Assembly (NCBI RefSeq): GCF_900129055.1
Contig: NZ_FQUZ01000004.1
Location: 1 to 64,000, forward strand
Length of the DNA stretch: 64,000 bases
Source of the DNA: Lampropedia hyalina DSM 16112
GTDB taxonomy: Bacteria; Pseudomonadota; Gammaproteobacteria; Burkholderiales; Burkholderiaceae_C
Reading direction: 5' to 3'
The notes below the pieces were generated by a model that was given only the letters and a program-made list of their open reading frames with translations, made no database searches and was not told the DNA's origin. Shown here one piece after another: positions 9,429 through 29,000 of this stretch. Each line of letters begins with the position of its first letter. The stretch's first letter is position 1. The position numbers and the translations under genes are program-made.

Positions 9429-9473
9429 TTTCCCCTGTGCTTCAACCCCCCAGACCATAAAAGGAGACAAACC

Positions 9474-10802: not shown

Positions 10803-10920
10803 TGCTTCATGAAAGCCGCTGTCGGGACGGCTGTTCCCGGCAGCGGCACCCTTCGCGCCGGGGATGGCCATTTCCGGCGCGGGCCACGGTTCCACCACGC
10901 CATTGAAAGACGAGACCAAC

Positions 10921-12249: not shown

Positions 12250-12301
12250 CGGGCCGCTTGCGGTTTGCAGCCACACATTCAACCCACCAGGAGACGACCC
12301 C

Positions 12302-13111: not shown

Positions 13112-13158
13112 TGGCGCGCACGTTCCAAATCCCGATTCAAGCCACCTGATGAGACCAC

Positions 13159-14409
13159 ATGACGCAAAACCTCACTGATTCCCTCGAAACCCGCGACAGT
13201 GCCGAGCGCGAAGCCACCCTGATGGCCGCCTTGCCCCGGCAGATTGCCCATGCACAGAGCCGGACGACCGCATTTGCCACCCTGTTGCAGGGAGTGGATG
13301 CCGCCGCCATCACCGACCGCGCGGCACTGGCCCGATTGCCCGTCACGCGCAAATACGAACTGCTGGAGCGGCAGAAGGCCGGTCGTGCCGACAACGTCTT
13401 CGGCGGCTTTGCCAGCGTGGGCTTCGGCCCCGACATGCCACGGGTGTTTGCCAGCCCCGGTACCATCTACGAACCCGAAGGCGCGCGCTCCGATTACTGG
13501 CGACTGTCGCGAGCCCTGCGTGCCGCAGGCTTTCGGCAGGGCGAGCTGGTACACAACAGCTTCAGCTACCACTTCACCCCGGCTGGCTCCATGATGGAAA
13601 CCGGCGCACACGCACTGGGCTGCACGGTCTTTCCCGGCGGCACCGGCCAGACCGAACAGCAGGTGCAGGCCATCGCCGAACTCCGGCCCGCAGGCTACGC
13701 TGGCACCCCCAGCTTCCTGAAACTGCTGGTGGAAAAGGCCGCCGAGCTGAACATTCCCATCGGCAGCCTGACCAAGGCACTGGTGTCGGGCGAAGCATTC
13801 CCGCCTTCACTGCGCGACTGGTTCACGGCCCGGGGCATTGATGCCTACCAGTGCTACGCCACCGCCGACCTGGGGCTGATCGCCTACGAAACCCAGGCGC
13901 GTGAAGGGCTGGTGCTCGATGAAAACGTCATCGTCGAGATCGTGCGCCCCGGCACCGGCGAACCCGTGCCCGAAGGCGAGGTGGGCGAGTTGGTGGTCAC
14001 CACGCTCAACCCGGACTACCCGCTTATCCGCTTCGGCACCGGCGATCTCTCTGCCGTGCTGCCGGGCCAGTGCCCGACGGGCCGCACCAACACCCGCATC
14101 CGGGGCTGGATGGGGCGTGCCGACCAGACCACCAAGGTGCGCGGCATGTTCGTGCATCCGGGGCAGGTGGCGCAAATCGCCAAACGCTTTGCGCAGGTGG
14201 TCAAGGCAAGGCTGATCGTCAGCGGTGAAATGGCCAATGACCGCATGACCCTGCATGTGGAAACCGGCGAACCCGCAGGCAATCTGGCCGGACAGATTGC
14301 CGATGTGATTCGTGAAGTCACCAAACTGCGCGGCGAGGTGCAGATCGTGCCACCGGGCAGCCTGCCCAACGACGGCAAGGTCATCGAGGACGCACGCAGC
14401 TACCAGTAA
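13159..14409 (+). CDS. Phenylacetate-CoA ligase-like AMP-binding enzyme
   Basis: This 416-residue protein of the PaaK-like ANL group has early LPVTRKYELLERQKA, the region SPGTIYEPEGARSDYWRL in place of a typical AMP-binding P-loop, AYQCYATADLGLIAYE as the adenine-site motif, and a C-terminal domain with GRADQTTKVRGMFVHPGQV and NDGKVIEDAR. It would form an aryl- or acyl-CoA. It ends the operon led by the other ligase gene, 47 bp after livF. The absence of paa ring-degradation genes means the substrate need not be phenylacetate. Confidence 0.85.
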   Translation: MTQNLTDSLETRDSAEREATLMAALPRQIAHAQSRTTAFATLLQGVDAAAITDRAALARLPVTRKYELLERQKAGRADNVFGGFASVGFGPDMPRVFASPGTIYEPEGARSDYWRLSRALRAAGFRQGELVHNSFSYHFTPAGSMMETGAHALGCTVFPGGTGQTEQQVQAIAELRPAGYAGTPSFLKLLVEKAAELNIPIGSLTKALVSGEAFPPSLRDWFTARGIDAYQCYATADLGLIAYETQAREGLVLDENVIVEIVRPGTGEPVPEGEVGELVVTTLNPDYPLIRFGTGDLSAVLPGQCPTGRTNTRIRGWMGRADQTTKVRGMFVHPGQVAQIAKRFAQVVKARLIVSGEMANDRMTLHVETGEPAGNLAGQIADVIREVTKLRGEVQIVPPGSLPNDGKVIEDARSYQ

Positions 14410-14462
14410 GAACCTGTTCCCGCTTTGAAGCTGTTTCTCCCTGGACGGGGGACAATATCCGC

Positions 14463-17400
14463 ATGATGTTTGCGCCGTCCTCCAAATCCTTTTCTGCCAC
14501 CAGACCGGTCGTTGCCCCCGGCATGGTGGCCCTGCATGGCAACCGGCTGGAGGTGCTGGCGCAGACGCTGGCAGCGTGGATGGCGCGGTGTCCGCTGGGG
14601 CCGCTGGAGCAGGAGGTGGTGCTGGTGCAGAGCAACGGCATGGCCGAGTGGGTGAAGATGGAACTGGCGCAGACCCTGGGGGTGAGCGCGGCCGTGCGCG
14701 TGGAGTTGCCGGGGCGGTTTGCCTGGCAGATGTACCGCCATGTGCTGGGCTACGCCGAAGTGCCGCGCCATACGCCGCTGGATAAAGCCTCCACGCTCTG
14801 GCACACCATGCAGCTTTTGCCGACGCTGGTGCAGCAGGGAGCCACCGGCGTGTGGGAGGGCATCGGCCAGTTGCTGGATGGAGGCGGGCAGGGCGGGGAC
14901 GATGCCCTCACCCAGCGGTATTTTCTGGCATCGAAAATGGCCGATCTGCTCGATCAGTACCAGGTCTATCGGCCCGACTGGCTGGTGCATTGGGAGCAGG
15001 GCCGCGATGGCGAGGACATCATGCCTGCCCAGCCTGTGCCCCGGTCGCTGGCACGGCACCTCCCCCCGGACGTGGCGCGGGTTCCGGTGCAGGAGCAGTG
15101 GCAGCCCGCGCTGTGGCGGCATCTGCTGGCGCAGTTGCCCGTGGCGCAGCGGCAGGCCATTCGCCCCCGGCTGCACCAGCGGGTGCTGGACGTATTGCAG
15201 ACAGGCCAGATGGCCGCCCCCCAGCATGTGCCCCGGCGGGTGGTGCTGTTTGGCATGACGCACCTGCCTGCGCCGGTGCTGGAGCTGCTGGGGGCGTTGT
15301 CCGCACGTTGCCAGATTCTGCTGGCCGTGCCCAACCCCTGCCGCTTCTACTGGAGCGACGCACTGGACGGGCGCGAGCTGTTCCAGCGAATGCCCCGCAA
15401 GGCCGCGCAGCCGCGACATGCCGAGCGCGGGGCGCAGCCGCTGGCGACACTCGATATGGCGCAGATGCACGCCCATGCCCATCCGCTGCTGGTGGCCTGG
15501 GGACGGCAGGTGCGCGACCATGTGCGCCAACTGGAAGCCTTCGACGAAGCCGCACAGGCCGCCGAGCGCATGGGGCTGGCCCGCATCGACTTCTTCGACG
15601 AGGACGACCGCCCCGATGCCAGCCTGCTCCAGCAGGTGCAGCAGCGCATCCGCGATCTGGTTCCGCTGGCCGAACATGCCGGGCACGCCACTGCCGTGCC
15701 GCTCGACGATCATTCCGTGCTGTTTCGTGTGGCACACAGCCCGATGCGCGAGGTGGAAGTGCTGCACGACCACCTGCTCGATTGCCTGCAACACTCACGC
15801 CCCGACGAGGGCTTGCAGGCACGCGACATCGTGGTGATGGTTCCCGACATCGCCCAATATGCCGCGCTGATTCAGGCGGTATTCGGGCAGTACGCGCCGG
15901 AGGATGCCCGCCACATCCCCTTCGACATTGCCGACATGGGAGCGCAGGCAGCCAGTCCGCTGCTCAAGGCCGTGCAGTGGCTGGCGGAGTTGCCCTGCCA
16001 GCGCGCGGGCCTGAGCGAACTGGGCGACCTGCTGGCCGTGCCAGCCGTGGCGCGGCGTTTCGGCCTGGATGCCGATGCCGTGGCGCAGTTGCAGGCGTGG
16101 ATGCAGGGCAGTGGCATCCGCTGGGGGCTGGACGCGGCACACCGCCGCGCCCTGGGCCTGCCTGCCGTGGGTGAGCACAACAGTGCCTGGTTTGGCCTGC
16201 AACGCATGGTGCTGGGCTTTCTCAGTGCAGCGCAGCCCTTCGATGGCATCGAGCCGTATGCAGAGATTGGCGGGCTGGCCGCTGCCCATGTGGGAGCCTT
16301 GGCGCAGTTGCTGCACCGCTTGCAGCACTGGAGCCAGACCCTCCAGACCCCTGCCAGCCCTGCCGTGTGGGCGCAACGCTGGCGCAGCGTGCTGGCGGAC
16401 TTTCTGGAGCCGACCACCGAAGAAGAACTGGCAGCCGTGGCCCTGCTGGAGCAGGCCTTGCAGGACTGGCTGCATGTGACCGCCGATGCGGGTTTCGAGG
16501 CAGCACTGCCGCTGGCAGTGGCACGCCATGCCTGGCTGGACGGCCTGAAAAACCCCGCGCCCACGCAACGCTTTCATGCCGGTGGCATCACCTTCTGCAC
16601 GCTGATGCCCATGCGCGCCATTCCCTTCCGCATCGTCTGCCTGCTGGGCATGAACGATGGCGACTACCCGCGCAAGAGCATGCGGCAGGACATGGACTTG
16701 ATGGCTCTGCCCGGTCAGGTGCGCCCCGGCGACCGCCGCCGTGCGCAGGACGACCGCCAGCTCATGCTGGAAGCCTTGCTGTCGGCACGCGATCGGCTCT
16801 ACATCAGTTGGGTGGGGCGCAATGTGCGCGACAACAGCCCCCGTCCGCCCTCGGTGCTGGTGGCGCAGTTGCGCGATTACCTCACCGCAGGCTGGGGCGA
16901 AGCCGTGGTGCAGCAGCGCACGCTGGCCTCTCCGTTGCAGCCCTTCAGCAGCCACTACTTCGAGGAGGGCAGCCGCTGGCAGACCTGGGCCAGCGAATGG
17001 CGGCCCATTCACCAGTCGGAGGGCGATTCACCCGCCAGCGTGGTGGATGCGGTATCGGCCACGGCATCGGCTTCGCTGGACGTGCCTGTCTGGACGCTGG
17101 CCGGGCTGGGCAGCTTCTGGCGTGACCCGGTCAAAGTCTGGGCACAGCAGCGTCTGCAATTGCACTACCAGCCCCTGCCCGAAGCCATCCCCGACCAGGA
17201 ACCACTGGCCATTGCCGGGCTGGAACGCTGGGCGCAATGGAATGCCTTGCTGCACACCCTGCAACCCCACGCCCGCGCCGGAGCCAGCCCCGCGCAATTG
17301 CAGGACATGGCACGGCAGGCATTGCAGCGGCAGGCACTGGCCGGAGCCTTGCCCCTTCACCAGATGGGCGAAGACTTGCAGGCGCAATGGCTGGAACTGC

Positions 17401-18110
17401 TCGATCCGCTGCTGCAACGCTGGGTACAGAGCCTGCAACAATGGCCGCAAGCCTGCGAACGCCAACGCCTGCAATACACGCATGCCCGCCACCCGCAATG
17501 GCAGGTGCAGGACTGGCTGCAAGGCGTGCATGAATCTGCCGATGCCACCGCCCAGGGCCAACGCATGCGCCTGCATGTCAAGCCATCCCGCTGCATCGAC
17601 CAGCCTGCCAACCGCAACCGTCCCCAGCCCTTGCTGCGTCTGGAGCCGTTGATTCCCGAATGGGTGCAGGCCGTGGTCGTGGCCGCCTGCCTGCCCGATA
17701 CCGCCCTGCACAGCCGCCTGATCGGGCTGGATGCCACACTGGAAATCACCCCGCTGGATGCGGAACAGGCACGCCTGTGGCTGGCGCAGATGCTGGAACA
17801 GGCCGCGCAGGGTCTGCAACAACCCCTGCCGCTGGCTGCCCAGACCGGTTTCGCCTGGCTGGCCGCACGCGAACGCACAGAGGAAGGCGGCGCAGAAGCA
17901 CACCAAAGCCTGGCCACGGCCCGCTCCCGCTACGAAGGCACTTATCAGCAACGCGGTGAAGTGCAGGACAACCCCTATCTGGCACGCTTCTACCCCGACT
18001 TCACCCACCTCAACACCGACGGACGTTTCGAGGCACTGGCACAAGCCATGCTGGAGCCGGTGCGCCAGTGGACGCAGCAGTGCGTTCGCATCGTGCCGTA
18101 TGATCGATAG
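14463..18110 (+). CDS. recC: Exodeoxyribonuclease V gamma subunit RecC
   Basis: This 1215-residue protein matches RecC along its length: the N-terminal helicase-like start LHGNRLEVLAQTLAAWM, VLVQSNGMAEWVKMELAQTLG, the middle HIPFDIADMGAQAASPLLKA, the motif MRAIPFRIVCLLGMNDGDYPRK and a nuclease-like C-terminal domain ending in FYPDFTHL. RecC recognises Chi and splits the DNA strands in the RecBCD complex for double-strand-break repair. Two ATGs lie side by side at 14463 and 14466. Length is slightly above the E. coli protein. Unusually, no recB or recD follows: the next gene, 128 bp downstream, is an ECF sigma factor. Either recBD lies elsewhere or the heme island separated them. Confidence 0.92.
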   Translation: MMFAPSSKSFSATRPVVAPGMVALHGNRLEVLAQTLAAWMARCPLGPLEQEVVLVQSNGMAEWVKMELAQTLGVSAAVRVELPGRFAWQMYRHVLGYAEVPRHTPLDKASTLWHTMQLLPTLVQQGATGVWEGIGQLLDGGGQGGDDALTQRYFLASKMADLLDQYQVYRPDWLVHWEQGRDGEDIMPAQPVPRSLARHLPPDVARVPVQEQWQPALWRHLLAQLPVAQRQAIRPRLHQRVLDVLQTGQMAAPQHVPRRVVLFGMTHLPAPVLELLGALSARCQILLAVPNPCRFYWSDALDGRELFQRMPRKAAQPRHAERGAQPLATLDMAQMHAHAHPLLVAWGRQVRDHVRQLEAFDEAAQAAERMGLARIDFFDEDDRPDASLLQQVQQRIRDLVPLAEHAGHATAVPLDDHSVLFRVAHSPMREVEVLHDHLLDCLQHSRPDEGLQARDIVVMVPDIAQYAALIQAVFGQYAPEDARHIPFDIADMGAQAASPLLKAVQWLAELPCQRAGLSELGDLLAVPAVARRFGLDADAVAQLQAWMQGSGIRWGLDAAHRRALGLPAVGEHNSAWFGLQRMVLGFLSAAQPFDGIEPYAEIGGLAAAHVGALAQLLHRLQHWSQTLQTPASPAVWAQRWRSVLADFLEPTTEEELAAVALLEQALQDWLHVTADAGFEAALPLAVARHAWLDGLKNPAPTQRFHAGGITFCTLMPMRAIPFRIVCLLGMNDGDYPRKSMRQDMDLMALPGQVRPGDRRRAQDDRQLMLEALLSARDRLYISWVGRNVRDNSPRPPSVLVAQLRDYLTAGWGEAVVQQRTLASPLQPFSSHYFEEGSRWQTWASEWRPIHQSEGDSPASVVDAVSATASASLDVPVWTLAGLGSFWRDPVKVWAQQRLQLHYQPLPEAIPDQEPLAIAGLERWAQWNALLHTLQPHARAGASPAQLQDMARQALQRQALAGALPLHQMGEDLQAQWLELLDPLLQRWVQSLQQWPQACERQRLQYTHARHPQWQVQDWLQGVHESADATAQGQRMRLHVKPSRCIDQPANRNRPQPLLRLEPLIPEWVQAVVVAACLPDTALHSRLIGLDATLEITPLDAEQARLWLAQMLEQAAQGLQQPLPLAAQTGFAWLAARERTEEGGAEAHQSLATARSRYEGTYQQRGEVQDNPYLARFYPDFTHLNTDGRFEALAQAMLEPVRQWTQQCVRIVPYDR

Positions 18111-18170
18111 CTGCACAACCACGATGTGGAAGCGTGGCTTCCATTTGCTGTGGTACTGACTTTGCCGTTC

Positions 18171-18187
18171 AGATTCTCGTTCTATTG
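18171..18187. promoter_or_regulatory. Possible Fur box before the ECF sigma gene
   Basis: ATTCTCGTTCTATT and its surroundings partly match the Fur consensus in its ATTCTCATTAT orientation, about 50 bp before the sigma factor start. FecI-type genes are usually Fur-controlled. The match is imperfect and could be chance. Confidence 0.3.
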
Positions 18188-18237
18188 GAAGAATGGCAAG
18201 CGGGGTTCTCGCACAAGCGCGTTTCAAAGAAATTTCC

Positions 18238-18744
18238 ATGAGCCAGGAATCTTCCCATACCGTTTTTCTTCGATACCGGCAGGAGTTGCTGGCCTGGCTG
18301 ACGCAGCAGATGCAGGAGGCGGATCAGGCCAGAGATGTCGTGCAGGAGTTGTATCTGCGGTATGTGGATCATGCGGCCGCGCATCCGGTCGAGAATCCCA
18401 GGGCATACCTGTTCCAGATGGCGCGCAACATCCTGGTGGACATGGCCCGTCAGCAGCAGTCCCGGCAGACCGATCCGTTCACCCACGAAGAAATGGATGC
18501 CATCGGTATGGTCGATCCCAACCCAGGGCCAGAGCAGATTGCCGCAGGCAAGCAACGCTTGCGCTTGCTGGTTGCCTGTCTTGCAGAACTACCAGAACTG
18601 ACGCAGCAAATCTTCATACTCAACCGTGTGCATGAAATGAGCTACAGGGAGGTGGCCGAGCAGCTTGGCATTTCTGTCAGTTCCGTACAAAAGCATTTGG
18701 CAAAAGCGTTGCGCCATGTCATGGACCACATGAAGACGCACTGA
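18238..18744 (+). CDS. ECF sigma factor, FecI type
   Basis: This 168-residue protein has sigma region 2 (QARDVVQELYLRYVDHA, ENPRAYLFQMARNILVDMARQQ) and region 4 (LPELTQQIFILNRVHEMSYREVAEQLGISVSSVQKHLAKAL), the normal two-domain ECF plan. The motif HPVENPRAYLFQMARN is characteristic of FecI/PvdS-type iron-starvation factors. The ATG at 18238 is chosen since the upstream ATG at 18193 has a Shine-Dalgarno placed far too close. It is followed by fecR and then by a receptor gene whose product has an STN domain, so it should direct transcription of the receptor operon when the receptor is occupied. Confidence 0.92.
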   Translation: MSQESSHTVFLRYRQELLAWLTQQMQEADQARDVVQELYLRYVDHAAAHPVENPRAYLFQMARNILVDMARQQQSRQTDPFTHEEMDAIGMVDPNPGPEQIAAGKQRLRLLVACLAELPELTQQIFILNRVHEMSYREVAEQLGISVSSVQKHLAKALRHVMDHMKTH

Positions 18745-18880
18745 ATTCCATGAAACTACCCCATCCACTGTGGCACGTCACGTCCCTGAAACACCACTTC
18801 TCCACAGACTGTTACTTGGAAGGATGGCTTCAAACGTCTTCTTTGTATAAAAGCGTGTTCGTGCTCTGGGCACAACCATG

Positions 18881-18905
18881 AAGTGCATGGCATTTTCATG
18901 CACTT
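18881..18905. promoter_or_regulatory. Perfect hairpin between sigma and anti-sigma genes
   Basis: AAGTGCATG (18881-18889) and CATGCACTT (18897-18905) form a perfect 9-bp stem with a 7-nt loop in the 246-bp gap between the sigma and fecR genes. There is no T-run, so it is not a standard terminator. It could tune the ratio of sigma factor to anti-sigma. Confidence 0.4.
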
Positions 18906-18990
18906 GTGTACCAAGACCTTGAGTGCGTTGCAAAAGAAGAAATCGTTTGATTGCCAGGCCTTTTCAAAGAACAACCCCCACATTGACAAC

Positions 18991-20070
18991 ATGGCAAACC
19001 GCAACAACAACCGTGACCAGCAAAATGGCTCTGCCACCGGGCTGGATGACTCCATCGACACACAGGCCGTTGAATGGGTGATTGCCCAGGAGGCTGAGGA
19101 CTGGCCCCAGAGGCAGGCCATGTTTGAGCAATGGTTGCAGGTTTCGCAAGCCCACCGGCAGGCATACGCACGGGCCAGTCAAAGCTGGAACCTCGCCGCA
19201 CAATTGCGGCATATGCCGCAGCTGCTTGCTCCTTTGCCTGCTGTGCAGCCTGTTCATGGTGGAGACATGGCATCCACGGCAGGAAAAGACCATGCCTCAA
19301 AAGGTCATTGGTTTTCCTGGAATCGCACAGGACGTACTGGAGCATGGCTGGGTGCCATGCTCCTGGTATGGGTGATGGGCGCGGTCTGGATTGGGGGTGA
19401 TCCCTCCATCGCCATGCTGGCCGATCATCGAACAGGTATGGCAGAAACACGCCGTATTCTTCTGGATGATGGCTCTTTGGTGGAACTGGGGGCCGACAGT
19501 GCCATTGCCGTGAATTACGACGGCAGTGAACGGCGCATCGAGTTGCTCAGGGGGCAGGCATTTTTCAGTGCCACATCGACTGGCACTGCCCAGGCGGGAG
19601 AACGCCCTTTCATCGTCGAGGCTGGACAAGGACAGACGCGCGCCCTTGGCACGCAGTTCGTAGTGGAACGCCTGCCAGAAAAAACATGGGTGACAGGCAT
19701 TGAACACCAGGTGGAAGTGAGCCTGAAGGCAGCAGGTGACTTGGCTGGCGCACAAGCCGTGGTGCTATCGCCTGGCGAGAGCATTCGCTACGACCACCGC
19801 GGATTGGAGACCGTGCAAACCAGGGATGCCTCTCAGGCACTCGCATGGCAACGTGGTCTGCTGGTTTTCAACAATGAACCCCTGTCAGATGTGATCGCCC
19901 GTCTCGAACGCTACCAGCGTGGTCGTATCGTACTCGCCCGCAGTGCATTGGCTGGCAGGCCCATTAGCGCAGTTGTGCCACTCAACAATACCGAAGAGGC
20001 CTTGCAGTCCATTGCCGCCGAACTCGGATTGGAGGTACTTCAGCTTCCCATGGTGACACTGCTGCACTGA
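18991..20070 (+). CDS. FecR-type anti-sigma/sigma regulator
   Basis: This 359-residue inner-membrane protein passes the receptor signal to the FecI-type sigma factor. The cytoplasmic N-terminus has the DUF4880 pattern (IDTQAVEWVIAQEAEDWPQR, RQAYARASQSWN). One membrane segment follows at about residues 117-135 (WLGAMLLVWVMGAVWIGG). The periplasmic FecR domain has RILLDDGSLVELGADSAIAV and ALGTQFVVERL. A C-terminal STN-like module (LVFNNEPLSDVIARLERYQ to the end) should contact the receptor. Upstream ATGs exist to 18883, but 18991 places the DUF4880 domain normally. No strong Shine-Dalgarno is seen for either start. Confidence 0.88.
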   Translation: MANRNNNRDQQNGSATGLDDSIDTQAVEWVIAQEAEDWPQRQAMFEQWLQVSQAHRQAYARASQSWNLAAQLRHMPQLLAPLPAVQPVHGGDMASTAGKDHASKGHWFSWNRTGRTGAWLGAMLLVWVMGAVWIGGDPSIAMLADHRTGMAETRRILLDDGSLVELGADSAIAVNYDGSERRIELLRGQAFFSATSTGTAQAGERPFIVEAGQGQTRALGTQFVVERLPEKTWVTGIEHQVEVSLKAAGDLAGAQAVVLSPGESIRYDHRGLETVQTRDASQALAWQRGLLVFNNEPLSDVIARLERYQRGRIVLARSALAGRPISAVVPLNNTEEALQSIAAELGLEVLQLPMVTLLH

Positions 20071-20074
20071 GCGG

Positions 20075-20130
20075 GTCTGCCGCGATTGGTGGCAGACAGG
20101 CAGAAATCCCTGTGGCAGGTTCTGTTTTTT
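20075..20130 (+). terminator. Terminator-like double hairpin after fecR
   Basis: GTCTGCC (20075-20081) pairs with GGCAGAC (20091-20097). A second, bulged hairpin at 20101-20124 (CAGAA...TTCTG, inner CCTG/CAGG) is followed by TTTTTT at 20125-20130. This would separate the regulatory pair from the receptor operon, which then needs its own promoter in the AT-rich stretch 20131-20200. Confidence 0.6.
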
Positions 20131-20261
20131 ATCTGAAATATAAAAAATCTTCTTTCTCATTACTCTTTCTATTTTTGTCAAACGTCTTCTGAGTAGGAAT
20201 TGCTGATACCCCATCCAGTTGGTATCGGCAACCAGAACACAGAAATACAGAAAGACGCGAG

Positions 20262-23111
20262 ATGACAGGAAATCGATGTGCTGTTCCAGCAGGGGGTGCC
20301 AGTCCTGCTGGGACATGCACCATCCAACCAAGTACGGTACTGACTGCGGCGGTGTTGATGACCAGCATGGTATGGCTGCACTCGGCCCATGCGCAAGAGA
20401 TGCAGCCATCAGCGCGGCAGCAGACTTCCACCAGCCAGCCATTCACGATCCCCGCCTCCGACTTGGGAACGGCCCTGTTGCGAGCAGGAGCTATTGCAGA
20501 GGTACGCATTGTTTTTGATCCACGGCGGCTGGCCGGGATCGAAACCACAGGGCTTGCAGGCCGCTTCACGCTCGACGAGGCATTGAGCCGGTTACTGCAC
20601 GGAACCGGCTTGCGCCATCGCATGGATGAACAAGGTAGCGTCCGTTTGGAAGAAGCCAGTCCTGCCGCAGGCCTGAAGCAGCCAGCGGTAGCCAGCGAAG
20701 CAGTGCCACAGAGCCTCTTGGCTGCTGCACTGGATGAGGTGGTGGTAGTGGCACCGGCCGAGTTGGATCGTCCAGCCAAAGACGATGCCTATCGCGTGGC
20801 GCGTTCCACCAGCGTCATGACCCGCGACGACATCGAACGCTCCCGGGGTACCTCGGTGGGCGACATCTTCAAGGGAGCCACAGGCGTGCTCGTAGGCGAA
20901 AACCGCAACAGTGGTGGGCTGGACATCAACATACGCGGCATGCAGGGGCAGGGCCGCGTGCCCATCCTGGTCGATGGCGCACGGCAGGAAACGACCGTGT
21001 ACCGGGGATACAGCGGTGTGGCTTCGCGCAGTTACATTGATCCCGATCTGATTGGCGGCATTCAGATCGACAAAGGGCCAGTCATGTCGGCCGAAGGAAC
21101 CGGTGCCACCGGCGGCCTGGTGAGTATGCGCACCATCAATGCCGATGACATCGTTCAGCCCGGCAAGGATTTCGGCTTGCGTCTGCGCGGTCAGGCCATT
21201 GGCAACAACAGCGGTGCATCTGTTGCACCCGGTACATCTGCTGGCTTGTTCATGGGGAGGCCCGGAGATTCTGGACACGTCTATCGCACCGACTGCGTCA
21301 CCCCCAGTATCTGTACTCCCGCGCTGCCCAACGAATGGGGCCATCCTGAAGGCCGCAATCGCCCCAGCACCTTCGACTTCAAGAACTGGGCTGGAAGTGT
21401 TGCCGCAGCCAAACGACTGGAAACCATTGACCTCGTTGCCGCTTACGCACAGCGTCGCCAAGGCAACTACTACGCGGGCAAGCATGGCCCTACCGCGTGG
21501 ATGGATGTTTCAGACACCCGCAAGCTCCCGTTCTATACCGAGGTGCGCCCTGCCATTCAGGGGGCCACCATTTTTGAAGGGGGTGAGCGCATCCCAGGCT
21601 CCAATTTCCAAAGCAAGTCCGGGATGCTCAAAGCCAAAGCCTTCTTGCCCGCCGATCAGGAACTGGAACTCAGCTACCTGCGCTACAGCAGTGCCTACGC
21701 CGAGCTTATGCCTTCACAAATTCTGCGATTCAGTGGCCTCAATCCGGTTTCGCAGCCATACGATAGTGATGTCACCGTGGACACCTATACCAGCCGCTAC
21801 CGCTGGAACCCATCTGAAAACCCGCTCATCGACTTGCGCGCCAACCTCTGGCACACCTTCACCGATGCCAGCAACAACAATCCTTTTAGCGACGACCTGG
21901 ACGAAGGTACGCGCCAGGAATACCGTCGCACAGGTCTGGACGTGACCAACACCAGCACATTGCATCACCCCGGAAGATGGGGAGAAAGCCAGTTGCGCTA
22001 TGGCCTTTCCGTGCAATCAGAAGATGTGCGCTACGTGCTTCCTGAAGGTACACAACGAGCTGGAGGTCCCGCAGGTAACAATGGCGACCGCGATGAATAC
22101 AGTGCTTTCGCTGCCTGGCAGTACAAGCCTACGCCCTCAATCACCTTCGATGCGGGCCTGCGGCACACGCGTTTCAAGTCTTTTGACCTCCAGACGGTTT
22201 TCGATCCCACCAGCCCACGTTGCGTGGACACCGATGGTGATGGTACCTGCGACCCTCTGCCCCATCACAACAAGCGAAGCGGCACAGCCCCGATCGTCAG
22301 CCTGACCTGGGAACCGGGAAACAGTGGTTTGCAACTGTACGGCCGCTATGCCGAAGCCTATCGCATGCCCAGCCTATTCGAGAGTACCTTCAGTGCCAGA
22401 CCTGACATCAGCCTCAACCCGGAGCATGCCCGGAACAAGGAAATCGGAATCAACTTCCTCAAGGATGGCCTTCTGCGCAGCGGTGACAAGCTACGCCTGA
22501 AGTTTGCGTACTTCCGCAACCACACCAGTGACTACCTCACGCGCACTTCACCCAATCTGTGGGAAGAAGGCGTGGATGAAAACAGATTCATGGGCTTCAC
22601 CATGCGCAATATCGACAGCGCGGCATTCGGTGGGATTGAACTCTCTGGCTCCTACGACATGGGAGCCATCTTCACCGAATTTGGTGTCACCAAATACAAC
22701 CGGATCGAAATCTGCCATACCGGCAGCTACCGCATCTACCAGTGCAACAACTACGGCATTGCCAACAGCTACATCAACAACATGGTGCCGCCCAACTGGC
22801 ATGGCAACCTGACTCTTGGAACCCGCCTGCTGGAACGAAAACTGGTGCTGGGCGTGCGCGGCATCTTCATGGGCCAGCGCAACAACACCCCGCAATACAA
22901 CGACGACACCGACCACGGTTTCCTGAAGGTAGTGCCCTGGCATGCCTACCGCACATTCGATTTCTTTGCCAGCTACAAGGTCAGTGATCGCGTCAGCATC
23001 GACTTCAACCTCGACAACTTCACCGACCGCTACTACCTCGACGCGCTCAGCCTGGGGCTGATTCCTGCTCCTGGCCGCACCGCTCGCCTGGGTGTGACCT
23101 TGCAATTCTGA
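20262..23111 (+). CDS. hphR: TonB-dependent heme/hemophore receptor with STN signalling domain
   Basis: This 949-residue outer-membrane receptor starts with a signal peptide (TVLTAAVLMTSMVWLHSAHA, cleavage near residue 44). An STN signalling domain follows (about 57-130: FTIPASDLGTALLRAGAIAE, GLAGRFTLDEALSRLLHGTG), then a TonB box near 158-165 (DEVVVVAP), a plug with LDINIRGMQGQGRVPILVDGA and a long beta-barrel ending in GVTLQF. The segment YRMPSLFESTFSARPDISLNPE resembles the FRAP/NPxL motif of heme receptors. The STN domain and the fecIR pair upstream make it a transducing receptor. The specific link to the hemophilin-like protein rests on gene order (receptor, lipoprotein, hemophore, Slam), as in the Acinetobacter hph locus. 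The ligand is inferred. Confidence 0.87.
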   Translation: MTGNRCAVPAGGASPAGTCTIQPSTVLTAAVLMTSMVWLHSAHAQEMQPSARQQTSTSQPFTIPASDLGTALLRAGAIAEVRIVFDPRRLAGIETTGLAGRFTLDEALSRLLHGTGLRHRMDEQGSVRLEEASPAAGLKQPAVASEAVPQSLLAAALDEVVVVAPAELDRPAKDDAYRVARSTSVMTRDDIERSRGTSVGDIFKGATGVLVGENRNSGGLDINIRGMQGQGRVPILVDGARQETTVYRGYSGVASRSYIDPDLIGGIQIDKGPVMSAEGTGATGGLVSMRTINADDIVQPGKDFGLRLRGQAIGNNSGASVAPGTSAGLFMGRPGDSGHVYRTDCVTPSICTPALPNEWGHPEGRNRPSTFDFKNWAGSVAAAKRLETIDLVAAYAQRRQGNYYAGKHGPTAWMDVSDTRKLPFYTEVRPAIQGATIFEGGERIPGSNFQSKSGMLKAKAFLPADQELELSYLRYSSAYAELMPSQILRFSGLNPVSQPYDSDVTVDTYTSRYRWNPSENPLIDLRANLWHTFTDASNNNPFSDDLDEGTRQEYRRTGLDVTNTSTLHHPGRWGESQLRYGLSVQSEDVRYVLPEGTQRAGGPAGNNGDRDEYSAFAAWQYKPTPSITFDAGLRHTRFKSFDLQTVFDPTSPRCVDTDGDGTCDPLPHHNKRSGTAPIVSLTWEPGNSGLQLYGRYAEAYRMPSLFESTFSARPDISLNPEHARNKEIGINFLKDGLLRSGDKLRLKFAYFRNHTSDYLTRTSPNLWEEGVDENRFMGFTMRNIDSAAFGGIELSGSYDMGAIFTEFGVTKYNRIEICHTGSYRIYQCNNYGIANSYINNMVPPNWHGNLTLGTRLLERKLVLGVRGIFMGQRNNTPQYNDDTDHGFLKVVPWHAYRTFDFFASYKVSDRVSIDFNLDNFTDRYYLDALSLGLIPAPGRTARLGVTLQF

Positions 23112-23150
23112 CACTCCATTTTCACCAGTACACCAAGGAGATTGACAACC

Positions 23151-25643
23151 ATGCCTATCTTGAGAATGCGCCATCTACTGACAGGGCTGGGAACCGCCCT
23201 GTTCCTCGCCGCCTGCGGTGGCGGAGGCAGTGACGACGGTGGCGGCAATACCCCGCCTGTCGTACAGAAACCCACTGCCGTGGCAAACGCCGACCAGAGC
23301 CGCGTGCCCATCGGCACGCTGGTGACGCTGGATGGAAGTGGCAGCACCACCCCCAACAATGGGGCCATCACCTACCAATGGAGCCTGCCCGGCAAGCCCG
23401 GCGGCAGCACAGCGGAACTCTCCAGCAGCACCGATGCCAAGCCCGGCTTCACCCCCGACCTGCCCGGCGAATACATCGCTGCGCTGATCGTGAATGACGG
23501 AACTGCCAGCAGCGACAGCACCCGCGTGACCATCACCGCCACCAACCCGAACCCGCTAGCCGTCATCAGCCCTGAAACCCAGGGCGTGCTGCTGGGTACC
23601 ACCATCACGCTGGACGGCAGCAACAGCAATCCGCCGACGGGTGTGGACAAGAGCGAACTCCGCTACCAATGGAGCCTGACGGAACGCCCGGATGGCGACA
23701 GCGCAGAACTGCAAGGCACCGACACCGCTACCGCCAGCTTCCTTGCCTCGCAAGTCGGTATCTACAAAGCCAGGCTGAAGGTCAGCCACGGTGAGCGCAG
23801 CAGCGAGGCCGAAGCCACCATCACCGTCAATACCTCAAACAGTGCCCCTGTCATCTCGATCGACCTACCTGAAGGCACGGAACATGACTTGAATGGCAGC
23901 CCCATCGTCAAGGCCGTGCGCGGCAAAGCCCTGGTGCTGGACGGCAGTGGCAGCAGCGACCCCGATGGCGATGCTCTCAACTACCGCTGGAGCTTCCCCA
24001 GTGCTCTTGCTAACGGCGGTGTGTCCATTCCCTATGGAGCCAACCCTTCCATGCGCAACGCAAACAGCGCGATGGCCGAATTTGTTCCCGATGCTGCTGG
24101 CACTTACCACATCGACTTCACCGTCTACGATGCCAGCGTCGCTGCCACCCAGCGGGTGATCGTCAAGGTCACCAGACCCGAAGGTGCAGCCAATACTCCG
24201 CCGGTGGCTGTCATCGGTTCAGGCAATCCCATCGAATTTGAATATGGGGGCTACGTTTTCCCAGCCGCCACCCTATCCTACGATGTCGATGGTGATCCGC
24301 TGACCTATCAATGGGTCTGGTGGAACACGGCTACACCTAATGACAAGCAGCCCGGCGGAACCCTCTGGGCTGCGAATATGGGCAAAGACCTTCCTGTCGG
24401 TACTTATGAAGTTGAGTTGATTGTCAATGATGGTCAGGAAAGCAGTGCTCCTGTACGCGAGAAAGTCACTATCAAGATTGGTGCCAATACGGCACCCCCA
24501 AACCCCAGTACCAAAGTGGATATTGCCCGAGTGATGGTTAGTGAGACTATCACCTTTGATGGAAGCGGCAGTACCGACCGCAATGGCGATCAGATCGCCT
24601 ACCAATGGACGCTGGTTGATCGCCCTGATGGCAGCAACGCCGTATTGCAGAATGCAACCAGCGCATTGGCCTCTGTGGTAGCCGACCGCCCCGGCGTTTA
24701 TGCTGCCCGGCTTCAGGTAACTGACTCGCGTGGTGCTACCAACTACGCAAGCCCGTACGACACCGTAAGTGCCTTCGCCAAGGCAAAGAACAACCCGCCG
24801 GTGGTGGCCTATTTCTCACCATTCGGGGCTGGCAACAGCAAACCTGCGACAGACCAGCCTGTAATTCTGAATGACAGCGGGTCGACCGCCTATGGCAGTA
24901 CCGTCTGGCTCCGGGCATTCGACCCGGATCAGGACAGCCCACTGTATTTCATCATCACCCCTATCCAACAGCCTGGCAGCGATATCCAGCCCCGTTCCAA
25001 TTCAACGTCACCAGGCACACTTGTCGAAGCTTCACTGGGCACCATCAAAACACCCGGTGACTACGAAATCGAAGCTCTCGTCAGCGATGGTGTGGCCAAT
25101 TCCGAACCTCTGCGTCAGAGTTTTTCGGTTGTAAACCGAGCAGATTTTACAAGCTTGCTACTGGAACGCGCCAGCACCCCTACGCGCCATGATGCGTCAG
25201 GCCCCGGTGGGAATCCGCCTTCCTATTCGCAGCTTTTCTTCCCTTTAGTCGTCCATCAAGGCTTCCTGCCAGAAGGCTCCCTCCTCACTACTTTCTGGTA
25301 TCGCCTGACAGCCTTTGATCGTGACTACACCATCACCGACTTGGTCACGTCTTCGACGGACAACAGCCTCTTGCCAAGCTTCCGTGGCCTGCAAAACGGG
25401 CAAATTATCCGCAAAGGCCAGACCGTGGAATTCGTTTGGCATCGCCCCTTGTTGCCGAACGAAGCGGAACTGCCACAGAAGCTGCGAGAAATAGCATCGC
25501 AGTTCGGTAGCCATAGCAACGAGTACAAAAACGAAGTTACACGTCAGCAGAAGATTCTGAGCGACTACCAGTTCACAGGAACCTTCCGCATCGCGGAAAA
25601 GGAGAATTACACCTTCCGTATAGGGCACTTCGCTCAAGACTGA
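23151..25643 (+). CDS. Large lipoprotein with tandem PKD-like domains
   Basis: This 830-residue protein has a lipoprotein signal with lipobox LAAC (Cys22) followed by a Gly/Asp-rich tether. About six immunoglobulin-like PKD/K319L-type repeats run from residue 38 to about 660, each with a core such as YQWSLPGKPGGS, YQWSLTERPDGDSAEL, YRWSF, YQWVWW or YQWTLVDRPDGSNAVL and an end like PGVYAARLQVTDSRG. The C-terminal 170 residues show no repeat and end with a charged helix (LPQKLREIASQFGSHSNEYK) plus beta segments. The ATG at 23151 has AAGGAG ten bases upstream. It sits 39 bp after the receptor and before the hemophore gene. I know no described hph/Slam locus with such a protein. A role as surface heme or hemoprotein docking scaffold is inference. 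Confidence 0.85.
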   Translation: MPILRMRHLLTGLGTALFLAACGGGGSDDGGGNTPPVVQKPTAVANADQSRVPIGTLVTLDGSGSTTPNNGAITYQWSLPGKPGGSTAELSSSTDAKPGFTPDLPGEYIAALIVNDGTASSDSTRVTITATNPNPLAVISPETQGVLLGTTITLDGSNSNPPTGVDKSELRYQWSLTERPDGDSAELQGTDTATASFLASQVGIYKARLKVSHGERSSEAEATITVNTSNSAPVISIDLPEGTEHDLNGSPIVKAVRGKALVLDGSGSSDPDGDALNYRWSFPSALANGGVSIPYGANPSMRNANSAMAEFVPDAAGTYHIDFTVYDASVAATQRVIVKVTRPEGAANTPPVAVIGSGNPIEFEYGGYVFPAATLSYDVDGDPLTYQWVWWNTATPNDKQPGGTLWAANMGKDLPVGTYEVELIVNDGQESSAPVREKVTIKIGANTAPPNPSTKVDIARVMVSETITFDGSGSTDRNGDQIAYQWTLVDRPDGSNAVLQNATSALASVVADRPGVYAARLQVTDSRGATNYASPYDTVSAFAKAKNNPPVVAYFSPFGAGNSKPATDQPVILNDSGSTAYGSTVWLRAFDPDQDSPLYFIITPIQQPGSDIQPRSNSTSPGTLVEASLGTIKTPGDYEIEALVSDGVANSEPLRQSFSVVNRADFTSLLLERASTPTRHDASGPGGNPPSYSQLFFPLVVHQGFLPEGSLLTTFWYRLTAFDRDYTITDLVTSSTDNSLLPSFRGLQNGQIIRKGQTVEFVWHRPLLPNEAELPQKLREIASQFGSHSNEYKNEVTRQQKILSDYQFTGTFRIAEKENYTFRIGHFAQD

Positions 25644-25799
25644 TAACAACCAATAACGCGTGATTTGAAATCAAGAAGCAGAGCATTGACTCTGCCAAGT
25701 CGAGCCACGATGAATCTGTCTTCCCAATGCCAGCAATGGCAAAGGGGAGATATTCAGCAAACCTCGTGTGCCATGCACACATTTTTAGGAGCACTTACC

Positions 25800-26609
25800 A
25801 TGCGTAAAACTTTGATTGCAGCAGCAATGCTCGCTACCTTTGGCGTCACACAGGCGCAAACAACCAACGTGGACGGAGGTACAACAGCCTCCAGCATCAT
25901 CAGTGTGGGTATTTCAAACGTGAATGCACAACCTTTTGGTCCGCACAAACCAGGCTATCCCGGTGTCTCACCAGATGGAAGCAACTACATCGACCTGGAC
26001 GGTATTTCCACATCGAGCCGCTTTGTTGATACTGTTGCTGGCTTCAACCACTATTACCTCCCTGGTTACACACACACCGCTCCTGGGGGCGGTACTGTCA
26101 CGACTCATATCAACTGGGTCAGGATTCCTTCGGCTGGCGAAGATGTGTACTTTGGCCTTGCAACCAATCCTGGTAGCTCCTCTCACAACCATGCTGCCTA
26201 CCATGTCGGAGACCGGACCGGCTATGCTGTGCCAGCGTCGAATACCAGCTACTCGGTTGGTGGCTTGTTGGCGACTCCAGGAACGGCTGCTAACGATCCA
26301 GTCATTTTGACTGGTACGTTGTCGTATGTGGCTAGTTATGTTTCCGTGACTGGCACGCTGAGTGGTACGAACACGGGTTCAAGCACTGTGCACACTTTGG
26401 GAATCAGTGCCACCGACTTCAGTTCCAATGGCCCAGGTACTTTCAATGGAACTTCAACTTACAGCAGTAGTGCTGGTGCTAGTGGCTCCGGGGTTTCCAG
26501 CGGCCATTTCTACGGTAATGGTGTCGGTGCTGGCAACAGCACCATTGCCGGTATCGCAAATAGTACTTCCGGCGATGCTTACGTTGCTTCCTTCGGCGGC
26601 AAGAACTGA
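25800..26609 (+). CDS. hphA: Secreted hemophilin/TbpB-barrel-like protein, predicted Slam substrate
   Basis: This 269-residue protein has a clear Sec signal (KTLIAAAMLATFGVTQAQTT, cleavage after TQA near residue 19) and no lipobox, so it should be released rather than lipidated. The mature part is rich in Gly, Ser, Thr and aromatic residues. Its C-terminus follows the eight-stranded TbpB-like barrel pattern: short strands, then GVSSGHFYGNGVGAGNSTIA and a final AYVASFGGKN, as in transferrin-binding protein B and hemophilin. His residues in YNHYYL-like and SSHNHAAYH segments could ligate heme. The gene is visibly more AT-rich than its neighbours. A TAGGAG Shine-Dalgarno precedes it and a terminator follows before the Slam gene. 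Family assignment is by pattern and context, not by alignment. Confidence 0.72.
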   Translation: MRKTLIAAAMLATFGVTQAQTTNVDGGTTASSIISVGISNVNAQPFGPHKPGYPGVSPDGSNYIDLDGISTSSRFVDTVAGFNHYYLPGYTHTAPGGGTVTTHINWVRIPSAGEDVYFGLATNPGSSSHNHAAYHVGDRTGYAVPASNTSYSVGGLLATPGTAANDPVILTGTLSYVASYVSVTGTLSGTNTGSSTVHTLGISATDFSSNGPGTFNGTSTYSSSAGASGSGVSSGHFYGNGVGAGNSTIAGIANSTSGDAYVASFGGKN

Positions 26610-26675
26610 GCTTTCATTCCTGAAAGACTGTAAGAGCAGGGCTATCTGAAACAAGAGATTGACCCATGATGCTCC

Positions 26676-26705
26676 CAGAACCTGCTTTCGGGCAGGTTCT
26701 GTTTT
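26676..26705 (+). terminator. Rho-independent terminator between hemophore and Slam genes
   Basis: CAGAACCTGC (26676-26685) pairs perfectly with GCAGGTTCTG (26692-26701) around a 6-nt loop, followed by TTTT. It should lower transcription of the translocon gene relative to its substrate gene. Confidence 0.85.
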
Positions 26706-26724
26706 ATGGACTGGCACGCTTTTC

Positions 26725-28191
26725 ATGAAATTTGTTTTTCAATATTCCGGCAAGTGCTGGCAATTGGCGGTATGGCTTCTGGCTGCAAGCTGGCCCGTCT
26801 GGGCGCAGCAAGATACAGCCGACCGGCTCTGGCAGGGTGTCGAGCAAAGATCACGCCAGCAGGTCGCCCCTGAACCACTGGGAGAAGACGCGCAAACCTC
26901 TCTTTACGATCCCGCACTGGCAGCTCTGTTGCAAACACCGCATCAGCGTATCCAGCAACTGACGCTGGCTATTCTGAATGCCGTGAACCAGCGCGATTGG
27001 TTCGGTGCAGACCGTTTGTTGCGCCAGTATGTGCAGGTACCGCAGCATGATCCATCTCTCGAAATGTTCGTGATGTCCAGCCGTATGGCAGCCGGTGGCG
27101 ACTATGAGGGTGCGATTGCAGGTTATCAGGCTGTGTTGCAAGCCAATCCGCAATTCGTGCGGGGAGAGCTGGATATGGCTCGTGTGCTGTATGCCGACCA
27201 TCGTTTGCGTGATGCACAGGAGGTGTTCGACCGGCTGCACAGCCAGCCGCTACCACCCAGCGTCATCCAGCATATTGATGAGTATCTCAAGGCACTGAAA
27301 CAGCGTCGGCAGCCGAGGTTTTCGCTGTCGGTCTCTGCGGTGCGCGAGGACAATGTCAATGGCGCATCGACGGTTGTTGATCCATGTGCCCTGGTGTTCC
27401 TCGGCGTCTGTCTGCCCAATACGCCGGGACAAAAACGCGCCGCTTCCGGCGTGTATGTCGAGGCGACTCTCAACAAGCTCTGGCCACTGGCGGGCAATCA
27501 TGGCCTGATGCTGCGCAGTATCAACTACGGCAATCATTACCGGCATGAAAGCGATTTCGACAATCTGGTTTCAACGAATTACCTTGGTTACCAGTATGCG
27601 TCGGCACGCCAGCAGTGGCAGGTGCTGCCACTGTTTGAGTACGACCGTGAGGGAGGCCGCAAGATTTACCATGCCTTTGGCGTGCGTGCGAGTTTCACAC
27701 GGCAATTGAATGAGCGCGCGCAGGTGGAGGCGAGCTATGAATTCAAGGCAAGGCATTTTTCGCCACAGTTTTCAGAAAACCTGCAAGGCCATTTACAGAG
27801 TTTTTCGCTGTTCGGCACCTACGCGTTCAAGCCCGATCTGGCGGCCTATGGCAGCCTGAGTTGGCGTGAAAGCGATGCACGACTGCCGATATTCGCCTAC
27901 CGCGAGAAAGTGGCACGGCTGGGCATCTACAAGGCTTTTGGCAATCAGGTGACAGTGAATGCCGCCTATGGGTATCGCCAGAAGCAGGCGGAGGCGGACA
28001 ATGCCGTATTCGGCCGCCGCCAGAGAGATCATGAAGGCAGTATCTATTTGAATCTTGCACTGCCCGGCTATCAGTGGCAGGGATTCACGCCGACTGCCAG
28101 CTACGAGTACCGAGATAATCGCAGCAGCATTCCACACGCCTACAGCCATCAAAAAAATCGTTTGACGCTGGGTGTACGCAAGGACTTTTAA
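26725..28191 (+). CDS. slam: Slam-type outer-membrane translocon (DUF560)
   Basis: This 488-residue protein carries a signal peptide (LAVWLLAASWPVWAQQD), an N-terminal TPR-rich periplasmic domain (about 30-185; GDYEGAIAGYQAVLQANPQF, ELDMARVLYADHRLRDAQ) and a C-terminal 14-stranded barrel of the DUF560/SlaM type ending in LTLGVRKDF. Slam proteins move TbpB-like lipoproteins and hemophilins across the outer membrane. The ATG at 26725 is picked because the longer frame from 26659 would begin inside the terminator hairpin and add a non-signal leader. It ends only 8 bp from the convergent trpC stop, so it is the last gene of the island. Slam subtypes match their neighbouring substrate, which supports the call for the gene upstream. 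Confidence 0.9.
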   Translation: MKFVFQYSGKCWQLAVWLLAASWPVWAQQDTADRLWQGVEQRSRQQVAPEPLGEDAQTSLYDPALAALLQTPHQRIQQLTLAILNAVNQRDWFGADRLLRQYVQVPQHDPSLEMFVMSSRMAAGGDYEGAIAGYQAVLQANPQFVRGELDMARVLYADHRLRDAQEVFDRLHSQPLPPSVIQHIDEYLKALKQRRQPRFSLSVSAVREDNVNGASTVVDPCALVFLGVCLPNTPGQKRAASGVYVEATLNKLWPLAGNHGLMLRSINYGNHYRHESDFDNLVSTNYLGYQYASARQQWQVLPLFEYDREGGRKIYHAFGVRASFTRQLNERAQVEASYEFKARHFSPQFSENLQGHLQSFSLFGTYAFKPDLAAYGSLSWRESDARLPIFAYREKVARLGIYKAFGNQVTVNAAYGYRQKQAEADNAVFGRRQRDHEGSIYLNLALPGYQWQGFTPTASYEYRDNRSSIPHAYSHQKNRLTLGVRKDF

Positions 28192-28199
28192 ATCTCTTT

Positions 28200-29000
28200 T
28201 CAGCCAAACAAATCCGCCAGGGCTTCGCCCGGCTCTGGTGCTCGCATGAAGGTCTCGCCCACCAGGAAGGCGTGGACATGGGCATTGCGCAGGGTTTGCA
28301 CATCCTCGCGGGTGGCAATGCCCGATTCCGTCACCAGCAGGCGGTCGGCGGGTACTTCGTCCAGCAGTTCCAGTGTGGTGTTCAGGCTGACTTCAAAGGT
28401 GCGCAGGTTGCGGTTGTTGATGCCCAGCAGCGGGGTCTTGAGTTTCAGGGCGCGGTGCAGTTCGGCGCGGTCGTGCACTTCCACCAGCACGGCCATGTCC
28501 AGCCCCTGGGCGATGGCTTCCAGGTCGGCCATCTGCGCATCGTCCAGGCAGGCGGCAATCAGCAGGATGCAGTCTGCGCCGATGGCGCGGGATTCATAAA
28601 TCTGGTACGGATCGACCATGAAGTCCTTGCGCAGCACGGGCAGATCGACGCTGGCACGGGCCTGCTTCAAATAATCCACACTGCCCTGAAAGAACTGTTC
28701 ATCCGTCAGTACCGAGAGGCAGGCCGCGCTGGTTTTGCCGTCACCCCAGGCGTAGCTCTGGGCAATGTCGGCGGGAATGAAGTCTTCGCGCAGCAGGCCC
28801 TTGCTGGGGCTGGCCTTCTTGACTTCGGCAATGACGGCAGCCTGCCCGTGGTCGATCTTGCGGCGCAGTGCGCCGACGAAGTCGCGTGTGAGGATGCGGC
28901 TTTCGGCGTCGGCACGCACCACTTCCAGCGGTTTTTTCTTCTGGGCGGCAGCGATTTCTGCGTGCTTGACGGCGACGATTTGGTTGAGGATGTCAGACAT
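28200..29000 (-). CDS. trpC: Indole-3-glycerol phosphate synthase
   Basis: This 266-residue TIM-barrel enzyme closes the pyrrole ring of indole-3-glycerol phosphate in tryptophan synthesis. Motifs: [20 protein letters not shown] (substrate-binding Lys and Ser), [53 protein letters not shown] and [14 protein letters not shown]. The start at 29000 has AGGA upstream and matches the family N-terminus [17 protein letters not shown]; the longer frame to 29051 would overlap trpD. It follows trpD by 29 bp on the same strand. It is monofunctional, without the TrpF domain found in enterobacteria. Confidence 0.96.

Follow-up and report, generated by a model that had tools for sequence, protein, structure and literature searches.

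A probable heme-acquisition operon in Lampropedia hyalina that combines a hemophilin and Slam with ECF-type control and a receptor-linked PKD lipoprotein

A run of six plus-strand genes within positions 18238–28191 of a 64,000-nucleotide stretch of Lampropedia hyalina DNA (the window, from a genome of 3.18 Mb) is read here, with a probability of about 80%, as a heme-acquisition operon. It comprises a hemophilin, a Slam exporter and a HasR-like receptor under the control of an extracytoplasmic function (ECF) sigma factor, and binding, export and signalling would proceed as in named relatives. The genes encode in turn the sigma factor, a FecR-type anti-sigma factor, a TonB-dependent receptor bearing an STN domain, a PKD-repeat lipoprotein, the hemophilin and Slam. 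This agrees in order and span with a description made earlier from the sequence alone, to which we refer as the original prediction. Curated Pfam cut-offs are passed by five of the products, and marginally by the hemophilin (HphA_N). The order is beyond chance, as it recurs complete in three other genomes and as its last three genes in a fourth. The departure from known hemophilin loci is the receptor-linked PKD lipoprotein; the six-gene plan is otherwise known.

The operon could work as follows. The hemophilin would be made with a secretion signal and cross the outer membrane via the neighbouring Slam. Outside the cell it would pick up heme for delivery to the HasR-like TonB receptor. Engagement of the receptor by heme, either alone or together with hemophilin, may then cause the STN domain to act on FecR, and FecR would in turn free the ECF sigma factor, raising transcription of the receptor, lipoprotein and hemophilin genes. 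A hairpin before the Slam gene probably reduces run-on of the message into it, in which case the cargo would outnumber its exporter. The PKD lipoprotein would be a lipid-anchored string of immunoglobulin (Ig)-like domains, with a C-terminal domain at which hemophilin or a hemoprotein may be held close to the receptor.

The identification of the 269-amino acid protein as a hemophilin is supported by both sequence and predicted fold. It matches hemophilin 8gmm in the PDB with E 2e-8, and a five-row profile gives E 1.3e-18. The protein has an N-terminal stretch that by eye resembles a signal sequence, and contains no cysteine. An AlphaFold model was built from the five-row alignment, with a predicted local distance difference test (pLDDT) score of 71.8 and a predicted template modelling (pTM) score of 0.78. 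The model has the N-terminal clamp and C-terminal eight-stranded barrel of the hemophilin/HphA family, the eight strands lying between residues 149 and 268. The first six structural matches found by VIA-align are all hemophilins (Z 21.4–23.8, 208–219 residues aligned, root-mean-square deviation 2.7–3.1), the best being the HphA proteins of V. harveyi (Z 23.8) and S. maltophilia (Z 23.6). TbpB, HpuA and fHbp follow at Z 15.3 and below, the TbpB lobes being reached by fold alone, and the first four Foldseek matches are again hemophilins (E 9e-11 to 7e-7). The hemophilin identity put forward in the original prediction is thus supported, and the barrel on which it depended is present in the model overlaid on HphA. 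The barrel is assigned from the model and the fold comparison, not from the TbpB_B_D profile.

The receptor is supported by its sequence as HasR-like and heme-type, with an STN domain, as had been anticipated. The STN (32.7 bits), Plug (64.1 bits) and TonB barrel (126.1 bits) families all score above their cut-offs, and the TonB-hemin family TIGR01785 is matched at 324.3 bits (cut-off 316.85). The best solved relative is HasR (5c58, E 1.1e-47), and the HasR signalling-domain entry 2m5j matches residues 54–136 with E 5.8e-6. The last gene is likewise confirmed as Slam/DUF560, with a barrel and N-terminal TPR region both above cut-off. The sigma factor, FecR and STN-bearing receptor stand in a row, which is the arrangement of FecIR-type systems. 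On pairwise comparison of the receptors of the four complete loci (window, L007, L009 and L011) the plug is 84–92% and the barrel 68–72% identical, while the parts concerned with signalling diverge rapidly together (STN 28–53%, sigma factor 28–63%, FecR 24–45%), as expected if each STN domain talks to its own FecR. The window sigma factor is 63% identical to that of L009 over 167 positions and 28% identical to those of L007 and L011; for FecR the corresponding figures are 45% and 24–28%. Given these low identities an exchange of sigma/FecR cassettes between loci was considered, but we do not claim it. That the receptor senses its own cargo is plausible by analogy with the Has system.

Table 1. 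Positions of the genes and other features of the locus in the window
Feature	Position	Strand	Evidence
ECF (FecI-type) sigma factor, 168 amino acids	18238..18744	+	Sigma70_r2 30.6 bits, Sigma70 r4_2 65.6 bits
FecR-type anti-sigma factor	18883..20070	+	FecR 61.0 bits (cut-off 24)
TonB-dependent heme receptor with N-terminal STN, 949 amino acids	20262..23111	+	Pfam STN, Plug, barrel; TIGR01785
PKD-repeat lipoprotein, 830 amino acids	23151..25643	+	PKD families, lipobox LAAC then GGGG
PKD lipoprotein C-terminal domain	25116..25643	+	Motif LTAFDxDYTI...NGQxIRxGxxVxF
Hemophilin (HphA-like secreted hemophore), 269 amino acids	25800..26609	+	PDB sequence match, profile, model fold
Hemophilin–Slam intergenic hairpin, conserved	26676..26701	+	Stem kept across related loci
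Slam / DUF560 / type XI secretion system (T11SS) outer membrane protein, 488 amino acids	26725..28191	+	SlipAM 157.2 bits (cut-off 22), TPR_Slam 57.1 bits (cut-off 35.2)

The start of the sigma factor gene was chosen by alignment to the L009 copy, an in-frame ATG at 18193 being also possible; FecR may begin at the GTG at 18883 or the ATG at 18898, and the Slam start given is the most likely choice. As read from translations, a recC-like frame ending at 18110 lies upstream of the six genes, and trpC/trpD-like genes lie downstream from 28200 on the opposite strand. No Rfam family matches across 17500–28700. The HasI promoter sequence, taken from the accessible text of PMC9249621, is matched at no more than 7 of 11 positions in the four gaps examined. 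We give no weight to a sigma-70 promoter scan (1 site, 4.6 expected) or a terminator scan (15 sites, 9.6 expected).

How general is this arrangement? The full order is found in L007 (genome G031), L009 (G003) and L011 (Pigmentiphaga humi), while L008 (G025) has the PKD lipoprotein, hemophilin and Slam only. G003, G025 and G031 belong to the family of the window genome. Pigmentiphaga humi is a betaproteobacterium of the Burkholderiales, and because it carries the full set we read the group as one of the Burkholderiales, which fits the betaproteobacterial origin given in the original prediction. Identities to the window proteins are 64–68% for the receptor, 56–59% for Slam, 47–55% for the PKD lipoprotein and 41–49% for the hemophilin. 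With the window genome counted each time, the hemophilin is present in 4 of 60 genomes among relatives and 3 of 399 drawn from the family, and Slam (at E ≤ 1e-60) in 2 of 399 drawn from the order, the other Slam being 31% identical. A scan of contigs with the Slam query confirmed one locus, that of Pigmentiphaga humi; a scan with a degenerate hemophilin pattern gave 38 matching stretches and confirmed none, and plasmid records gave no tblastn match. The system is thus uncommon among the genomes drawn, and few of them underlie the comparison.

In a draw from the phylum HphA_N was found in 9 of 398 genomes, again including that of the window; the other eight provide nine hemophilin loci, all outside the window's order. 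A sigma factor and FecR adjoin the receptor in six of the nine (L026, L027, L028, L030, L031 and L033), and were not seen in L029 (with 670 bases before the hemophilin), L032 or L034 (cut by a contig end). The gap between receptor and hemophilin in L032 (9748–9837) contains an A+T-rich inverted repeat of 18 pairs (AAATGACAATGATTATT...) that by eye resembles a Fur-type operator.

A number of observations weigh against an operon of this kind. In the window protein HphA_N barely exceeds its cut-off (22.1 bits against 22; 25.4 bits in the genome scan), and it is passed by one of the four related proteins, so that of the profiles proposed in the original prediction the hemophilin one is marginally matched and TbpB_B_D (PF01298) is unmatched at E ≤ 1 in the Pfam scan. 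The confidence of the hemophilin model is middling, and the models of the other four proteins reach a pLDDT of 40–61. In L008 neither receptor, FecR nor sigma factor is seen in the 1,050 bases that precede the PKD gene, and the Slam frame is split into two pieces (4861–6333). The divergence of the STN domains does not match that of FecR pair by pair (between L007 and L011 the identities are 48% for sigma, 37% for FecR and 33% for STN). Neither TonB nor a heme oxygenase is seen among the six genes; the genome has one gene of the heme-oxygenase family, on another contig, and HemS was not found in it. A Fur-box consensus is unmatched within 3 mismatches across the window. Lastly, the alignment column of one of the two HphA heme ligands is a gap in all five hemophilins of the window group. 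As to L008, translations of its positions 1–1050 give transposase-like and toxin–antitoxin-like frames at the expected place of the receptor; the locus has been rearranged, is decaying or was misassembled.

The heme ligands of A. baumannii HphA are H43 and H106, according to the accessible text of PMC8560813, and by counting these are residues 33 and 96 of the PDB chain compared, with an offset of 10 for both. We aligned 16 hemophilins from 14 loci together with two PDB chains. The H43 column is occupied by H49 of the window protein and by its counterpart in the L007 copy; in the hemophilins of L008, L009 and L011 a histidine stands a few columns before it. It is the H106 column that is gapped in the window group; in the other 11 hemophilins it holds histidine (eight), threonine (two) or a gap (one), those of L026a, L027a and L034 likewise having no histidine there. 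H92 is the sole histidine that is invariant in the five group proteins and lies near the gapped position, making it a candidate second heme ligand. L026 (11536–13115) and L027 (8984–10563) each have a tandem pair of hemophilins before a single Slam, of which the first copies lack the H106-type histidine.

The original prediction lists the PKD lipoprotein in its gene order and assigns it no role. The protein contains five stretches matched by PKD_4 (102.2 bits) and four by K319L-like_PKD (132 bits). Cysteine 22 and the following GGGG are invariant in an alignment of the window protein with those of the four related loci, and in all five loci (window, L007, L008, L009 and L011) the lipoprotein gene precedes that of the hemophilin. 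The C-terminal domain, with its core of LTAFD-x-DYTI, passes no Pfam cut-off in any of the five members (best E 0.045), and for the window member by itself NCBIfam gives nothing at E ≤ 0.01 and the PDB sequences nothing at E ≤ 5. The domain is present in 4 of the 60 related genomes, including the window's own, and these are exactly the four that have the hemophilin (Fisher p 2e-6, a value that ignores kinship and is based on a profile built from these very loci). In a draw from the order it was found in 1 of 330 genomes, that of the window itself. The full-length model has a pTM of 0.37, and a fold search with it returned mostly long Ig- or cadherin-type strings, with TM-scores below 0.25 among the 50 matches listed, from which no function can be read. 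Within the literature searched, including papers accessible in part, we found no description of such a lipoprotein alongside hemophilins.

The C-terminal domain is also found at three further places in the same four genomes (L046, L047 and L048, the last cut by a contig end). L046 (some 3 kb past the hemophilin locus of G003) and L047 (on contig 11 of G000, the genome of the window) are both sigma–FecR–receptor–PKD runs, and neither hemophilin nor Slam was found in the stretches of 15.5 kb and 18 kb, respectively, around them. The L046 receptor is 56% identical to that of the window, and in a receptor tree it groups with those of the four full hemophilin loci (support 89/97, at a fork that is unstarred; the long branches flagged are L010, L048 and L033). 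By comparison, BLAST pieces of the receptors from hemophilin loci outside the order show about 26–33% identity to the window receptor, A. baumannii HphR not being included. With a PKD lipoprotein thus placed behind a 56%-identical receptor and no hemophilin or Slam nearby, it seems from these sequences to travel with this receptor lineage, hemophore or not.

Two of these places show further variation. In L047 (G000:C11:16000-34000) the paralogous receptor, at 11025–12982 on the minus strand, lacks the plug part, and the gene looks broken, part of the STN end being in a different frame from the barrel; the PKD gene beside it is open over 856 amino acids. L033, one of the loci outside the order, has two PKD lipoproteins (449 and 459 amino acids; 10335–13257, minus strand) between receptor and hemophilin, one of which is weakly reached by the C-terminal profile (E 8e-6).

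What does the lipoprotein do? Our own suggestion, which we put forward tentatively and at somewhat below even odds, is that it is a partner of the receptor that docks hemophilin or a hemoprotein, in the role of a co-receptor. It might on the other hand be unrelated to heme uptake and simply be carried along as a passenger in an otherwise ordinary HphA/HphR/Slam system. The gene table of A. baumannii hemO, as given in the accessible text of PMC10483418, includes no PKD protein, yet that system works; the HphA paper (PMC8560813) nowhere uses the word PKD, and eight of the nine loci outside the order show no PKD lipoprotein, although contig ends truncate L029 and L034. A passenger would, however, hardly be expected to be kept before the hemophilin in five of five loci at the identities given above, to stand also behind receptor paralogues where no hemophilin was found nearby, to appear twice at the same place in L033, or to have its C-terminal domain in exactly the hemophilin-bearing genomes, and so we regard this as rather unlikely. 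The lipoprotein could also remain on the periplasmic face of the outer membrane, bridging the receptor STN domain, peptidoglycan and FecR, and serve signalling rather than capture. It lies directly behind sigma factor, FecR and receptor in six of eight places within the window's family and Pigmentiphaga (window, L007, L009, L011, L046 and L047; L008 is an exception within its 1,050 bases and L048 is cut by the contig end). Moreover its model matched Ig-type strings with no Slam-type barrel among the 50 matches listed, so that Slam is not an obvious surface route for it. Yet a run of glycines behind the lipidated cysteine is known from surface lipoproteins of Neisseria, and no FecIR system is known to require a bridge of this kind; we think a periplasmic role unlikely.

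The purpose and ligand of the hemophilin might also differ from those of a heme-acquisition operon. It could mainly starve competitors of heme, as proposed for Hpl of Haemophilus haemolyticus, rather than feed its producer, and the accessible text of PMC10964412 reports that the H. haemolyticus hemophilin lowers colonization by non-typeable H. influenzae. Here, however, the same operon encodes a heme-family receptor that resembles HasR, and this makes such a role improbable. Alternatively the cargo might bind another porphyrin or a metal with a set of ligands that differs from that of HphA, as the gapped H106 column could indicate. This we consider very improbable, given that H49 occupies the H43 column in the window protein, that the invariant H92 lies nearby and that the receptor is heme-type; in addition heme is bound through a single histidine in the H. 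haemolyticus hemophilin, according to the accessible text of PMC8560813.

The gap between the hemophilin and Slam genes contains an 11-pair hairpin. The stem has the same letters in L007, L008 and L009, save for edge positions and the innermost pair, and in L011 the same stem is formed from other letters. Over the 11 pairs 96.4% of the alignment cells are paired, with two-sided changes at four pairs, all from L011, a number reached in none of 500 shuffles; the measure of further pair types, one of five, does not exceed the shuffles (110 of 500), and up to three two-sided pairs, with 31–47% of cells paired, are seen in slid controls. A 24-base pattern of the hairpin occurs once each in G000, G025 and G031, always at this gap, and was not found in G003, whose first stem base differs. 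Among 319 genomes drawn from the family, not including G003, a looser pattern is present in four: three times at this gap and once in G129 as an unrelated copy with no gene of the locus nearby. Stems of at least 10 pairs are found in 8 of 13 hemophilin–Slam gaps and, elsewhere in these loci, in 6 of 31 gaps (Fisher p 0.012; L027, a near copy of L026, was left out, and one of the 13 gaps has only 9 bases). Since long stems occur in other gaps too, a stem alone is weak evidence, and the gap as a whole folds unremarkably in L009, L011, L026 and L028 (z −0.4 to −1.6). We suggest that the hairpin may attenuate transcription or stabilize the message, keeping cargo above exporter.

A second Slam of the genome lies in a parallel operon at L010 (G000:C45:22000-41000, 9268–18968, minus strand), with the order ECF sigma factor, FecR, receptor, a 318-amino acid secreted protein, an ELWxxDGT-repeat lipoprotein, Slam and a DUF333/MliC protein. 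Its receptor is siderophore-type (TIGR01783 227.5 bits, cut-off 223.5), with STN at 15.4 bits, below the cut-off of 28.4. The secreted protein scores 34.1 bits for FHBP_C (cut-off 28.1), with a best PDB match of E 0.013 and an NCBIfam score of 18.5 bits of 200. Judged by its sequence, L010 seems to repeat the plan of the window operon for a different ligand, and its secreted protein may be a new soluble Slam cargo.

Hemophilins are known soluble cargo of Slam, and a further conserved component linked to the receptor would fill a gap in the picture of how the hemophore docks. The C-terminal domain of the PKD lipoprotein marks further pairs of receptor and lipoprotein that have no known ligand. 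Speculatively, PKD-string lipoproteins with this domain could be a new class of partner dedicated to STN-bearing TonB heme receptors, each a long lipid-anchored mast whose tip captures hemophilin or hemoproteins; we think this doubtful, but if it were so the hemophilin operon would have arisen by the joining of a hemophilin–Slam cassette to an existing unit of FecIR, receptor and mast. Pigmentiphaga, an environmental betaproteobacterium, offers a tractable case in which to ask whether the STN signal is heme, hemophilin or both.

The plan has several relatives in print. In Kerstersia gyiorum a sigma factor, FecR, 'FecA' and a PKD domain protein are adjacent twice in Table 6 of PMC6461280, as far as that text is accessible; the likeness is one of gene listing, and the words 'hemophore' and 'DUF560' are absent from the main text. 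The hrp locus of Xenorhabdus nematophila (HrpA/HrpB/HrpC, TXISS-1B) has a soluble single-barrel cargo, a DUF560 exporter and an adjoining TonB receptor, whereas the accessible text of PMC8406197 mentions no ECF/FecR module or PKD lipoprotein, the word 'sigma' being absent. ECF control of a hemophilin–Slam locus, predicted for the window and present there, is not new, since it has been published for a related locus. This is the hemO cluster of A. baumannii, which contains an ECF sigma factor, an anti-sigma factor, hphR, hphA, hsmA, a TonB-related gene and a heme oxygenase in the accessible text of PMC10483418, and sigma factor, anti-sigma factor, TonB receptor, hemophilin and Slam thus follow in the order of the window. 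The HphA structures of that species match the window hemophilin model with Z 21.8–21.9. The hemO table has no PKD lipoprotein, which the window has, and its TonB-related gene and heme oxygenase are additional to the six genes of the window. Two more differences from HphA systems are the gapped H106 column with its invariant H92, and the conserved hairpin between hemophilin and Slam.

The has operon of Serratia marcescens runs hasI-hasS-hasR-hasA-hasD-hasE-hasB, and its induction requires heme on HasR together with the hemophore, according to the accessible text of PMC9249621. A search of the window genome for HasA (PF06438) found none, although no control genome was matched either, so genome-wide absence is not shown. 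Sigma factor, anti-sigma factor, STN-bearing receptor, hemophore and exporter stand in the same order in the two systems, the cargo and exporter being HasA and HasDE in Serratia but hemophilin and Slam in the window, with the PKD lipoprotein added. The order of the has operon and the genes of the window together suggest a Has-like wiring, in which hemophilin would replace HasA and Slam would replace HasDE.

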